From Vagococcus zengguangii (lineage in GTDB: Bacteria; Bacillota; Bacilli; Lactobacillales; Vagococcaceae), in the NCBI RefSeq assembly GCF_005145005.1, contig NZ_CP039712.1, positions 155,001 through 219,000 on the forward strand: a DNA stretch of 64,000 bases, read 5' to 3'. The notes under the pieces are model-generated. The model did no database searches. It saw only the letters and a program-made list of their open reading frames with translations, and had not been told where the DNA came from. Both the position numbers and the translations under genes were made by a program. This document shows, one piece after another, positions 43,651 to 60,840 of this stretch. Position 1 is the first letter of the stretch; each line of letters begins with the position of its first letter.

Positions 43651-44304
43651 CTAAAGTAAGTTTGAAGCAAAAGTAATTACTAAGTACGCCAAGAAATTAT
43701 TGATAAAATGCAAAGCCATCGACACTTCGATACGTTTTGATTTGACATATATATATCCCATGATAAAGCCCATAATAGTATAGGCGAAGAATGCCGGAAT
43801 AGAGTCCGGTGTATGTGGTAAACAAAATAGGACAGAGCTGATAATCAAGCCAAACCAAACTTTTTTGGTATCATCGGGGTTCATGATGTCACCAAATAAA
43901 CGAATAATACCAAAGCGGAAAATTAACTCTTCGCCAATAGGTGCTAAAACACATAGAATGAAAAATAACGTACCCGGATTGATTTGTGTAGCTAAATCAT
44001 AAATGGCTTCGTTATTGCTAGTAGTATCATTTTCCATTAGAGGAAGAATCAGCAAGTTAGAAAGATAAATAGCGATATAGCCACCAATAATGTAGAATAA
44101 ATGTTTCTTTTGAAATAATTTTGGGAAAAATTGATGCTTTGTTTTTGTTAAATAAAAACCGATAAAAGCTAATAAAACTAAAAAGACACTAATAATACCG
44201 ATTTTTTCATAGCCTAACATAATAAGAGAGCTGGGTAATGAGTAGACAATGAAAAAAATAATTAATAGCCCAAATTGCCATAATTTGGAGATGATGTTCT
44301 TCAT
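43651..44304 (-). CDS. CPBP-family intramembrane metalloprotease
   Basis: The 217-residue protein has about six to seven hydrophobic helices and the CPBP (Abi/CAAX-like) motifs: IGEELIFRFGIIR (EExxxR), SVLFCLPHTP and HFINNFLAY. Members act as intramembrane proteases, in some cases giving self-immunity to bacteriocins; no bacteriocin genes are seen nearby. The ATG has AGGAGG upstream. It is a single-gene unit between two hairpins. Confidence 0.85.
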   Translation of the reverse strand: MKNIISKLWQFGLLIIFFIVYSLPSSLIMLGYEKIGIISVFLVLLAFIGFYLTKTKHQFFPKLFQKKHLFYIIGGYIAIYLSNLLILPLMENDTTSNNEAIYDLATQINPGTLFFILCVLAPIGEELIFRFGIIRLFGDIMNPDDTKKVWFGLIISSVLFCLPHTPDSIPAFFAYTIMGFIMGYIYVKSKRIEVSMALHFINNFLAYLVITFASNLL

Positions 44305-44332: not shown

Positions 44333-44366
44333 AAGGGACTGTGACTAGTGGTCGCAGTCCTTTTTT
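44333..44366. terminator. Hairpin terminator downstream of the hepT repeats
   Basis: GGACTGTGAC (44336-44345) pairs with GTCGCAGTCC (44351-44360) with one G-U pair; T6 follows on the + strand and TTTTATTT on the minus. On the minus strand it would end a hepT transcript after it has passed the repeat units. Confidence 0.75.
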
Positions 44367-44375
44367 ATTATGATT

Positions 44376-44434
44376 GAGTTAAGGTGCTAGGTGCAAGTTT
44401 TCTGCATAAATCATCAGACTAAATGCTTCCTGAA
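44376..44434 (-). other. Non-coding stretch after the repeats, with a small hairpin
   Basis: This piece of the 375-bp gene-free interval 44305-44679 contains a perfect hairpin, ATGCTTC (44423-44429) with GAAGCAT (44432-44438), and an AAGGTGCT tag like those flanking the repeat units. It looks like a degenerate end of the repeat array. Confidence 0.45.
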
Positions 44435-44553
44435 GCATCTGGGTAAACGGGCTTTCGTGGGCTACTTTTTTTCAATATGTTGTAACTCTCAAAAATTGTT
44501 GTACAATTTTCGTCGTCCCACGCATATTGCGCAAAAGCAAAACACCCACTCAA
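44435..44553 (-). repeat. Structured intergenic repeat, copy A
   Basis: On the minus strand the unit starts GGTGCTTGAG and ends CGAAAGCCCGTTTACC. It folds into nested stems: outer GTGGGT/GCCCAC (+ strand 44544-44549 and 44457-44462), middle CAATATG/CATATTG (44523-44529 and 44473-44479) and an AAAATTGT/ACAATTTT tip. It is tandem to copy B with a 119-bp period. It follows the polyprenyl synthase gene in the sense direction. Confidence 0.82.
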
Positions 44554-44679
44554 GCACCTTGGTAAACGGGCTTTCGGACGCAACTTCCTCGGTAATATGT
44601 CACGACTCCTAAAAATTGCTACGCAATTTTTGTCCTCGTACGCATATTACTCGAAAGTTAAACGCGTCCTCAAGCACCT
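44554..44679 (-). repeat. Structured intergenic repeat, copy B
   Basis: It begins directly after the polyprenyl synthase stop codon, as GAGGTGCTTGAGGACGCG on the minus strand. Stems: outer GGACGC/GCGTCC (+ strand 44664-44669 and 44576-44581), middle GTAATATG/CATATTAC (44592-44599 and 44643-44650) and tip AAAAATTGC/GCAATTTTT. The outer and middle stems differ in sequence from copy A yet pair fully. Confidence 0.85.
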
Positions 44680-45657
44680 CTAATAATCTCGTTGTAGTAG
44701 TTGTTGGGTCATTTCTTGTAAGACGGTTTTGGCTGGGATGTTTGGTAGTTTGCTGATTTCTTTTAGGGCACTGTCCGTATAGCGTTTGGCCATTGATTGT
44801 GCTTCAGTAATCCCGTTATAACGTTTAATGTTTTCTAATATTTCTTTGACATCTTCTTCTGATAAATCTTGTTTAGTTCTTAAAATATCGAATGCTTGTC
44901 GGTTATTTTTCATCGCTAAGATTAAAGGTAACGTATAATTACCATTCTGGATATCCTCGAGCACTGGTTTTTGTAAGACGTCTTCATCAGCGGTGAAATC
45001 TAAAATGTCGTCTAAAATTTGAAATGCCATCCCGATATCGTGGCCAATACGATAAGCACGTAGTTGTGTCATTTTTGAGCAACCAGCAAAGCGAGCACCT
45101 TCTGCACAGCTTAGTTGGAATAGTTGTGCGGTCTTACCTTTGACATGACGCAAATACTCTTTAACAGTAATCTCAGGATTGTGACGCAAATGCATTTGAT
45201 CTAATTCACCAATTAAAATATGGCGCATATTTTTTGCATTGAAATCCAAGACTTTATAGTCACGCGTTGCCTGTGTTACTAATTGGAAATAAACGGTAAA
45301 TAAGAAATCACCAGTATAAACTGCGATATCTTTACCGTAAAGAGATTGAATGGTTTCCATGTTACGACGAATAGGCGCTTCGTCGATAATATCATCATGG
45401 ACTAAGGTTGCTGCATGTAAAATTTCAATAGCTGCAGCATATTGGTATTTTCTCTTATTAGAAGGGACTTCTCCAAATTTTGTGAACAGTAAGAAAAAGG
45501 CTGGTCGTAAAAGCTTTCCACCATTGGCAAAGAAAGATTGCAAGGCACGAGAGATTTCCTTATTTCGAATCGTCACTTCTTGATTCATGATTTTTTGTGT
45601 TTCTAATAATTCTTGTTGTAGTTCTGGAAATTTTTCCCATATGGAGTGAATTGCCAT
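44680..45657 (-). CDS. Polyprenyl diphosphate synthase (heptaprenyl-type)
   Basis: The 325-residue trans-prenyltransferase condenses isopentenyl units into a long all-trans chain. Both aspartate-rich motifs are clear: LVHDDIIDEAPIRR (first) and FQILDDILDFTAD (second). Length and motifs match HepT/IspB-type long-chain synthases; the product is probably the menaquinone or demethylmenaquinone side chain used by cytochrome bd, encoded 1 kb away. Chain length cannot be fixed from sequence. The ATG follows AGGAGG. Its stop codon abuts repeat copy B. Confidence 0.88.
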   Translation of the reverse strand: MAIHSIWEKFPELQQELLETQKIMNQEVTIRNKEISRALQSFFANGGKLLRPAFFLLFTKFGEVPSNKRKYQYAAAIEILHAATLVHDDIIDEAPIRRNMETIQSLYGKDIAVYTGDFLFTVYFQLVTQATRDYKVLDFNAKNMRHILIGELDQMHLRHNPEITVKEYLRHVKGKTAQLFQLSCAEGARFAGCSKMTQLRAYRIGHDIGMAFQILDDILDFTADEDVLQKPVLEDIQNGNYTLPLILAMKNNRQAFDILRTKQDLSEEDVKEILENIKRYNGITEAQSMAKRYTDSALKEISKLPNIPAKTVLQEMTQQLLQRDY

Positions 45658-58814: not shown

Positions 58815-59644
58815 TGAAAAAATCATTTAAGTGGTCCAATTTATATTTAGTGTTAGTATTTGTGATTTTATATTTACCGATTATTTACTTAACGTTTTAC
58901 TCGTTCAATGCCGGTGGCGATATGAATGGTTTCACAGGCTTTACGTTGGAACATTACCAAGCTCTATTTGAAGATAAACGTTTGTTACTGATTGTAGCAG
59001 ATACCTTTTTACTAGCGTTCTTATCAGCGTTAATCGCAACGGTTATCGGAACATTTGGAGCAATGATGATTTACTATACGAAGAAAGTAGAACGCCGTAA
59101 TTTATTATTAAGTTTAAATAACATTTTAATGGTGTCGCCTGATGTTATTATCGGGGCTAGTTTCTTAATCTTCTTTACATTACTAGGTATTAGTTTAAAC
59201 TTCTTATCAGTGTTGCTATCACATATTGCGTTCAGTATTCCAATTGTGGTGCTAATGGTTTTACCAAAACTAAAAGAAATGAATCCATCGTTAGTTGATG
59301 CAGCAAAAGATTTAGGTGCAACTAACTGGCAAATTATTCATAAAGTTATTTTACCGTTCATTACACCAGGGATTATCGCGGGCTACTTTATGGCCTTTAC
59401 GTATTCGTTAGATGATTTTGCCGTGACATTCTTTGTAACCGGAAATGGTTTTTCAACCTTAGCTGTTGAGATTTACTCACGTGCTCGTCAAGGGATTAGT
59501 TTAGAAATTAATGCCTTAAGTACGTTGTTATTCTTGTTCTCGATGTTATTAGTTGCAGGTTATTATTTCATCAGTCAAGAAAACACCACAAAAAAACAAC
59601 GTGTGAATCGTAAGAAACAAAACGAGGTGGCAGACTTACTATGA
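58814..59644 (+). CDS. potC: Spermidine/putrescine ABC transporter permease PotC
   Basis: The 276-residue second permease has six helices and the coupling motif NPSLVDAAKDLGATNWQ, followed by SLDDFAVTFFVTG, conserved in PotC. It overlaps potB by 1 bp and potD by 4 bp. The C-terminal tail is highly basic. Confidence 0.93.
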   Translation: MKKSFKWSNLYLVLVFVILYLPIIYLTFYSFNAGGDMNGFTGFTLEHYQALFEDKRLLLIVADTFLLAFLSALIATVIGTFGAMMIYYTKKVERRNLLLSLNNILMVSPDVIIGASFLIFFTLLGISLNFLSVLLSHIAFSIPIVVLMVLPKLKEMNPSLVDAAKDLGATNWQIIHKVILPFITPGIIAGYFMAFTYSLDDFAVTFFVTGNGFSTLAVEIYSRARQGISLEINALSTLLFLFSMLLVAGYYFISQENTTKKQRVNRKKQNEVADLL

Positions 59645-60714
59645 AAAAATTAAAAGTTTTATTAATCGGCATCCTTGCCATCATTGTGATTTTATTTTTC
59701 ACTAGTCGTCATATGCGTACAGCGCAAGGACATACTAGTGGTAACACTTTAACGATTTATAACTGGGGTGATTACATTGACCCAGAGTTAATTGGGAAAT
59801 TTGAAGACCAAACAGGTTACAAAGTAAGTTACGAAACCTTTGATTCCAATGAAGCGATGTTTACTAAAATCAAACAAGGTGGGACGTCTTACGATTTAAC
59901 GATTCCAAGTGAGTACATGATCCAAAAGATGATGAAAGAGGATATGCTTCATAAATTGGATTACTCAAAAATTAAAGGAATTGAAGCGATTGATCCGCGT
60001 TTTATGGACTTAGACTTTGATCCAGATAATCAATATTCTATTCCTTACTTTTGGGGGACGCTAGGGATTGTTTATAATGACAAACAATTTTCAGAAGACG
60101 ATATTCAACACTGGGATGATTTATGGAAACCAGAATTACATGACAGTTTGATGTTAATCGACGGAGCTCGTGAAGTGATAGGCTTAGCTTTAAACAGTAA
60201 CGGTCAGTCATTAAATAGTACGGATAAAGACGAGCTGTTAGCGGCGTCTAAGAAGTTAAGCACATTAACTGATAACGTCAAGGCTATCGTCGCTGATGAA
60301 ATTAAAATGTACATGATTAATGAAGAAGCAAGCGTTGCCGTAACCTTCTCTGGGGAAGCAGCTGAAATGGTTGATAGTAATGAACATTTACATTATGTCA
60401 TTCCAAGTGAAGGGTCAAATTTATGGTTTGATAATATCGTCATTCCTAAAACAGCTAAAAATATTGACGGTGCCTATGATTTCATTAACTTCATGTTAGA
60501 ACCGGAAAATGCCGCTCAAAATGCCGAGTACATCGGTTATGCAACACCTAACAAAGAAGCAATGGCCATCATGCCAGAAGAAATCACAAGTGATGAACAG
60601 TTTTATCCAAGCGATGAAACCGTTAATAACTTAGAAGTCTATGAAGATTTAGGCTTAGAATATTTAGGTATTTATAACGATCTGTTCCTAGAATTCAAAA
60701 TGCATCGAAACTAG
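59641..60714 (+). CDS. potD: Spermidine/putrescine-binding protein PotD
   Basis: This 357-residue extracellular binding protein captures polyamines for PotABC; LTIYNWGDYIDPELIGKFE is the family hallmark. The N-terminus (KKLKVLLIGILAIIVILFF) is a hydrophobic segment without a lipobox cysteine, so it is held by an uncleaved anchor or released, as in several other Lactobacillales PotD proteins. Repeat copy C starts immediately after its stop codon. Confidence 0.93.
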   Translation: MKKLKVLLIGILAIIVILFFTSRHMRTAQGHTSGNTLTIYNWGDYIDPELIGKFEDQTGYKVSYETFDSNEAMFTKIKQGGTSYDLTIPSEYMIQKMMKEDMLHKLDYSKIKGIEAIDPRFMDLDFDPDNQYSIPYFWGTLGIVYNDKQFSEDDIQHWDDLWKPELHDSLMLIDGAREVIGLALNSNGQSLNSTDKDELLAASKKLSTLTDNVKAIVADEIKMYMINEEASVAVTFSGEAAEMVDSNEHLHYVIPSEGSNLWFDNIVIPKTAKNIDGAYDFINFMLEPENAAQNAEYIGYATPNKEAMAIMPEEITSDEQFYPSDETVNNLEVYEDLGLEYLGIYNDLFLEFKMHRN

Positions 60715-60840
60715 AAAGTGCTTGAGGACGCGTTTAGGCCTGAGAAATATCGAAGAACAGTTAAAAATTGTTTCTCAAATTTTTAAACTGTTAAGAGCTA
60801 TTTCCGAAGGACTGCGTTCGAAAGCCGGATTAAGCAAAGT
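60715..60840 (+). repeat. Structured intergenic repeat, copy C
   Basis: It starts at the potD stop codon with AAAGTGCTTGAGGACGCG, sharing 19 identical bases (GTGCTTGAGGACGCGTTTA) with copy B. It ends in GCGTTCGAAAGCCGG. Stems: outer GGACGC/GCGTTC (60726-60731, 60814-60819), middle GAAATA/TATTTC (60744-60749, 60799-60804) and a tip built on AACAGTT/AACTGTT. The interior sequence differs strongly from copies A and B but keeps the same fold. Confidence 0.8.

Follow-up and report, generated by a model that had tools for sequence, protein, structure and literature searches.

We read the two hairpin units that lie head-to-tail behind the polyprenyl synthase gene hepT in the window (the whole 64,000-nucleotide stretch analysed here, from Vagococcus zengguangii) as the product of repeated insertion of a structured non-coding element, rather than as gene-specific regulation. 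In full, the reading is that a mobile-looking element of about 120 nt inserts behind stop codons, is folded as 3' untranslated RNA, and slows or directs decay of the message; we consider this moderately probable. The sequences show that the copies share a common structure with compensatory change and an excess of G-U cells, stand at stop codons and often before a terminator, turn over between sites from species to species, and form arrays of mostly unlike units. The family is defined by its structure, and has no Rfam match in the stretches tested. If the reading is correct, repeats of several bacterial families join into one structure-defined family, and the unlike units at one gene end are natural sets for testing. 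Two questions become testable: whether such repeats persist through fold-driven movement, through shielding of mRNA, or through the two together, and what places an element within a few letters of stop codons.

The hepT array and the reach of the family

The hepT gene occupies 44680..45657 on the minus strand (Pfam PF00348, polyprenyl_synt, E 5e-65), and its TAG stop codon lies at 44680-44682. Unit 1 starts at 44679, the next base after the stop, with zero gap; its model span, 44561..44681 on the minus strand (116.5 bits), takes in the last two letters of the stop codon. Unit 2 follows on the same strand at 44442..44561 (105.5 bits; genome position 199442-199561), the two model spans overlapping by one base. 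The units are 73% identical and are spaced 119-120 nt apart, in agreement with the 119-bp tandem period given in the initial annotation. Coordinates and model spans likewise bear out its placement of two head-to-tail units on the sense side behind the hepT stop, and the flanks and paired arms of both units are exactly as it described them. Its third copy, mentioned without coordinates, was located at 60714..60834 on the plus strand (92.2 bits), directly behind the stop codon (60712-60714) of the open reading frame 59641-60714. A possible 5'-end remnant of a further unit, CAGATGCTTCAGGA, was seen by eye at 44428..44441 on the minus strand; it was not significant in the fragment test, where the best match lay elsewhere in the stretch and scored 24 against a threshold of 29. 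Behind the array, a terminator-like inverted repeat (no strand assigned) was read from the sequence at 44336..44360. Downstream of hepT, at 43651-44304, the same strand carries a CAAX-protease-like gene (PF02517).

The bit scores come from a covariance model, designated R1, built from 36 copies and used with a cut-off of E <= 0.01. Run on the window alone it gave units 1 and 3; unit 2 came from the genome-wide search. A DNA search of the 2.19-Mb genome with the region found 26 matches, the query among them. R1 found at least 44 copies at 25 sites, a lower bound because 150 of 2101 candidates were scored; two or three units are present at 14 of these sites. Within the genus, R1 matched two of four genomes, with 44 copies in this genome (G000) and 26 in the sister species G003. 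Judged by hepT, the closest relatives with names are Vagococcus lutrae, V. proximus and V. fessus, which have 0, 0 and 1 copies, respectively. In the family, 11 of 29 genomes had matches, with up to 85 copies; in the order, 78 of 395 genomes, representing 22 of 80 genera; in the class, 16 of 398 genomes, of which 11 come from a family outside the order (f17), with one single match in family f11. In the phylum sample only the genome itself matched, out of 398. Nine candidates per genome were scored in the order, class and phylum searches, so that copy numbers there are lower bounds; ten chosen genomes scored more fully gave 0 to 42 copies. Tandem copies occur in other relatives too. One unit, from family f3, matches 68 plasmid records, 57 of them Enterococcus, and f3 is taken as the Enterococcus family for that reason. 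For f17 there is a weak hint of a relation to Staphylococcus, as a neighboring gene matches Staphylococcus records at 74-75% identity.

A common hairpin with compensatory change

The common structure is one long hairpin of 41 modelled pairs, with bulges and internal loops at fixed places. Minus-strand folds of the two hepT units beat 200 of 200 dinucleotide shuffles, with z values of -4.56 and -4.33 (the latter for unit 1), and predicted fold energies were -47.1 kcal/mol for 44550-44680 (unit 1) and -41.3 kcal/mol for 44435-44560 (unit 2). On the plus strand z was -1.77 for unit 2 and -6.95 for unit 1; given the latter value, fold energy alone cannot pick the strand.

Four alignments were used to assess paired change. 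Alignment A1 holds 36 of the 44 genome copies, aligned by sequence alone, and omits one identical duplicate, truncated copies and copies not yet collected; because its rows were chosen by end motifs, conserved ends are partly built in, while pairing is not. A2 has 34 rows mostly from other genera (31 in the G-U count and the tree-based test), A3 has 67 distinct rows (62 in the same two analyses), and A4 has 112 distinct rows from four groups and two orders. A2 to A4 were fitted to the model and so lean towards the structure. Rows shorter than 105 nt were left out of the G-U counts (A1 to A3) and the tree-based test.

In A1, 91.3% of cells at the 41 pairs are standard pairs, two-sided changes occur in 30 pairs (23.1 in shuffles), and the covariation score is 0.520, compared to 0.179 for shuffled alignments and at most 0.144 for slid partners. 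The score in A2 is 0.313 against a null of at most 0.125. A4 has 91.1% of its cells paired and a score of 0.673 (0.195 shuffled, at most 0.130 slid), with two-sided changes at 40 of 41 pairs (34.0 in shuffles, at most 27 slid) and in 1149 cells (338 in shuffles). Against a tree-based null, computed by a purpose-written script that follows the R-scape idea and that recombination among copies could weaken, 15 (A1), 4 (A2) and 20 (A3) of the 41 structure pairs reached E<0.05. Tests of all pairs gave 18 hits, of which 16 fall inside the structure, one lies beside it, and one joins the outer ends. Conservation in loops did not clearly exceed that in stems (0.90 vs 0.86 bits). On the pattern of substitution, the structure is under selection, with the fold kept through compensatory change in several families.

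The initial annotation had called for a covariance model and a covariation test, and had named two outcomes that would count against its proposal, namely no further copies in related genomes and no covariation beyond phylogenetic expectation. The model, once built and run, found further copies both in the genome and in relatives, and covariation exceeds the shuffled, slid and tree-based nulls, so neither outcome was seen. Its two suggestions, a structure under selection or a spreading hairpin element, both gain support, and the evidence fits the two at once.

G-U cells outnumber A-C cells at paired columns by 76 to 26 (A1), 69 to 7 (A2), 117 to 35 (A3) and 233 to 43 (A4); pairs with more G-U versus more A-C number 14/7, 15/4, 21/7 and 23/7 in the same order. 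A single conserved G-U pair supplies 27 of the 76, 26 of the 69 and 40 of the 117 G-U cells in A1, A2 and A3, and without it the counts are still 49/26, 43/7 and 77/35. This excess favors the gene-sense strand, be it RNA or single-stranded DNA, as the folded form. Beyond the modelled pairs, columns 4 and 120 of A1, at the outer ends, covary: a left end AGTG goes mostly with a right end CCGGATTA, and GGTG with CCCGTTTA, with exceptions such as 807745.

Stop codons, arrays and site turnover

A site was counted as lying at a stop codon if a sense open reading frame of at least 80 codons ended no more than 12 nt from the first unit. This was so at 65 of 99 sites, compared to 317 of 3960 (8%) random intergenic positions beside the same sites. 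By genome, the counts are 22 of 25 sites in this genome, 10 of 14 in G003, 19 of 31 in G043, 9 of 16 in G024, 3 of 7 in G286 and 2 of 6 in G241. The rule is looser outside the genus (33 of 60 sites), where sites are the best-scoring of the matches rather than a random sample (34 of 85 matches in G043, making 31 sites, and the best-scoring listed elsewhere: 16 of 24 in G024, 6 of 11 in G241, 7 of 18 in G286). In family f17 it fits 3 of 16 loci, with several others beginning behind another unit. Of nine Enterococcus faecalis copies, five follow a stop in sense at a distance of 0-11 nt, and four are antisense or unclear. Some misses are short genes whose stop falls inside the first letters of the unit, for example a 72-codon open reading frame at 2177253. 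Beyond the last unit, 61 of 99 sites have a terminator-like hairpin within 220 nt, a feature of 18 of 495 resampled stretches; the counts are 20 of 25 sites in this genome and 0 of 6 in G241.

The location between stop codon and terminator suggests that units are transcribed with the upstream gene, as part of the 3' untranslated sequence of its mRNA. In that position the hairpin would slow or direct decay from the 3' end and leave the coding sequence untouched, a proposed action through which the position could be tolerated or favored.

Units of one array are mostly unlike. Median identities within arrays and across sites are 0.72 and 0.70 in this genome and 0.70 and 0.68 in G003 (p 0.19 each), and tandem duplication as the main route to arrays was rejected, because same-array pairs overall are no more alike than cross-site pairs. 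Some tandem duplication does occur, since 3 of 34 pairs within arrays are at least 0.9 identical, a higher share than the 8 of 1080 across sites. A 97% pair in G003, behind two copies of one gene, may reflect segmental duplication; in this genome, copies at two sites with different upstream flanks are 96% alike. Units would seem to arrive singly, by insertion in trans, with a preference for the spot behind stop codons and for the ends of resident units.

Arrays usually trail off in a partial unit. At 29 of the 39 sites in this genome and G003, with about 0.4 expected, the downstream stretch matches the element with a score above 29, the 99th percentile for 117 resampled stretches, whose highest score was 32. 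The match is a 5' fragment, running from element position 1-11 to 16-65, at 28 of the 39 sites, and a further nearly full unit at one (G003 28477). Most of these half-units start within 10 nt of the last unit, and one at 40. Six agree with a unit of their own array in 27-28 of 28 letters, and most are no closer to their own array than to other sites; either loss of the 3' arm or insertion could have produced them. In G003 arrays, for example at sites 1619180, 127709 and 1712111, the two or three letters behind full units are often constant within the array, in units whose interiors differ by about 30%, as though each insertion had copied the local junction.

The upstream flank was found in the compared stretches of G003 for 15 of the 25 sites in this genome, and was not found there for the other 10. 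In the sister species, 7 of the 15 comparable sites are occupied, one by truncated units only, and 8 are empty. The hepT site is empty, with a possible remnant, TAATAGGTGCT; some empty sites may hold such remnants, so that absence can reflect loss. Reading occupied and empty site pairs by eye established no clean target duplication and linked no transposase.

Known repeats and competing explanations

Rfam returned no match at gathering score within the window. Over 20 loci of relatives it returned one, a sodium riboswitch (RF03071, at 713-760 of locus L202) away from the element, and assignment to a known RNA family was rejected. The earlier remark that the repeat matches no named RNA family agrees with the Rfam result in the window; a named kind of repeat does exist, Efa/EFAR of enterococci. 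In available excerpts, Efa-1 is described as a 163-bp intergenic element in 65(18) copies, with a pair of adjacent stem-loops (PMC2267715), Efa elements are placed near the 3' ends of coding sequences (PMC1590033), and EFAR elements are counted as MITEs (PMC3733652).

R1 finds nine copies, scoring 53.8-74.4 bits, in a 747-kb E. faecalis record, so one structure model recovers both these and the copies of the window. Seven of the nine consist of a hairpin unit of about 122 nt to whose 3' end, after a 7-nt spacer, a second hairpin is attached; this is about 42 nt long and similar in sequence from copy to copy (loci L238, L219, L240, L241, L242, L243 and L244). The total of about 170 nt, with two hairpins, resembles the published form; the second hairpin may be a terminator. 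In the window, by contrast, units adjoin every 119-120 nt and lack an intervening second hairpin, and so depart from the two-stem-loop form of about 163 bp; they often have AGTG and CCGGATTA ends, and usually a trailing 5' half-unit. The EFAR trait of intergenic location, preferentially at 3' ends of coding sequences, is found in the family of the window. We infer from anatomy that the E. faecalis copies are the published EFAR, and this resemblance makes the kind one already known in enterococci. The family of the window is probably of the EFAR kind, and its arrays are a distinct subfamily. That subfamily, arrays of unlike units, half-units, near-exact placement at stop codons, and reach to a second order are added here; none appears in the excerpts of EFAR literature covered, which do not include the 2009 EFAR paper. 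A literature search that left subscription journals mostly uncovered did not show the family outside enterococci. In the excerpted text of PMC1590033, preliminary data suggest that Efa RNA may enhance the stability of co-transcribed mRNA; this statement is the only printed support found for the proposed effect on mRNA decay.

Other small repeats are likened by description, not sequence. Excerpts give RUP (107-108 bp) and BOX (100-200 bp) as small intergenic repeats of the Gram-positive Streptococcus pneumoniae, and ERIC as a single long predicted stem-loop tied to mRNA stability (PMC2267715, PMC2229807); Ype repeats, like Efa, are reported near 3' ends of coding sequences (PMC1590033). ERIC and Ype differ in belonging to enterobacteria, in another phylum. 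REP elements are likewise dispersed intergenic hairpins, but measure 20-40 bp according to an excerpt of PMC3733652, compared to about 120 nt here. Membership in the REP/RAYT group was rejected because this genome lacks a Y1 transposase (0 matches to PF01797; control rings were positive in 5 of 14).

The hairpin might instead be selected as single-stranded DNA for its own movement, after the manner of REP or IS200/IS605-type elements, with no RNA role and with the stop codon merely the spot of least harm. Turnover of sites and the 96% copies behind different flanks fit such movement, the sole covarying pair away from the hairpin links both ends, and the G-U excess suits one DNA strand equally well. 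The missing Y1 transposase argues against it, and avoidance of harm predicts equal placement on the antisense side, where one of 99 sites has the stop of a gene no more than 12 nt from the 3' end, though 34 of 99 have such a stop 13-80 nt further on; we regard this explanation as possible but rather unlikely. Location at gene ends would also suit a transcription terminator or insulator, as would the second hairpin in E. faecalis, which is preceded by a T-rich stretch and, in some copies, followed by one too. That the element has this role is improbable, for the unit ends in CCGGATTA or CCCGTTTA with no T run, and separate terminator-like hairpins follow the last unit far more often than in resampled stretches. 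An intrinsic terminator proper was rejected, as a GC-rich stem with an immediate T run is absent and the terminator-like hairpins lie further on.

Least credible, to the point of being very improbable, is a cis-regulatory RNA kept to regulate particular genes. Seven of 14 G003 sites are common to this genome, and an element matching R1 at 55.9 bits lies behind hepT in genome G022. Yet no gene is common to the 25 upstream open reading frames of this genome and the 25 of G043, eight comparable sites are empty in the sister species, and cross-genus pairs of upstream genes, in a comparison covering part of the G043 copies only, come to one between G003 and G043 (46% identity, behind a weak G003 match) and two between G043 and G286 (28-34%). 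Gene-specific regulation is disfavored because element-bearing genes are hardly common to different genera. Insertion of a structured element, folded in the 3' untranslated RNA, is the reading we prefer. A more specific form of it, which we offer tentatively and think rather unlikely as a whole, is a structure-defined mobile element present in two or more orders of Bacilli. It would insert head-to-tail, aimed at the letters beside stop codons and at the ends of copies of itself already in place, with a 5' half-unit left at the tail of every array, and would ride as 3' untranslated RNA, its fold kept while its sequence turns over.

The unit of the window has no match in the plasmid collection, and that of f17 none in the plasmid or phage collections. 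Enterococcus-like units also have matches in plasmid records OL539428.1 and NZ_CP151545.1, whose labels read Escherichia coli and Pseudomonas aeruginosa. A G043 unit matches 87 records of the phage collection, 66 of which carry a Listeria phage name, such as LM 4-11-1 and LM 4-14-1; the 30 records listed are short and unannotated, and may be stray bacterial DNA rather than phage.
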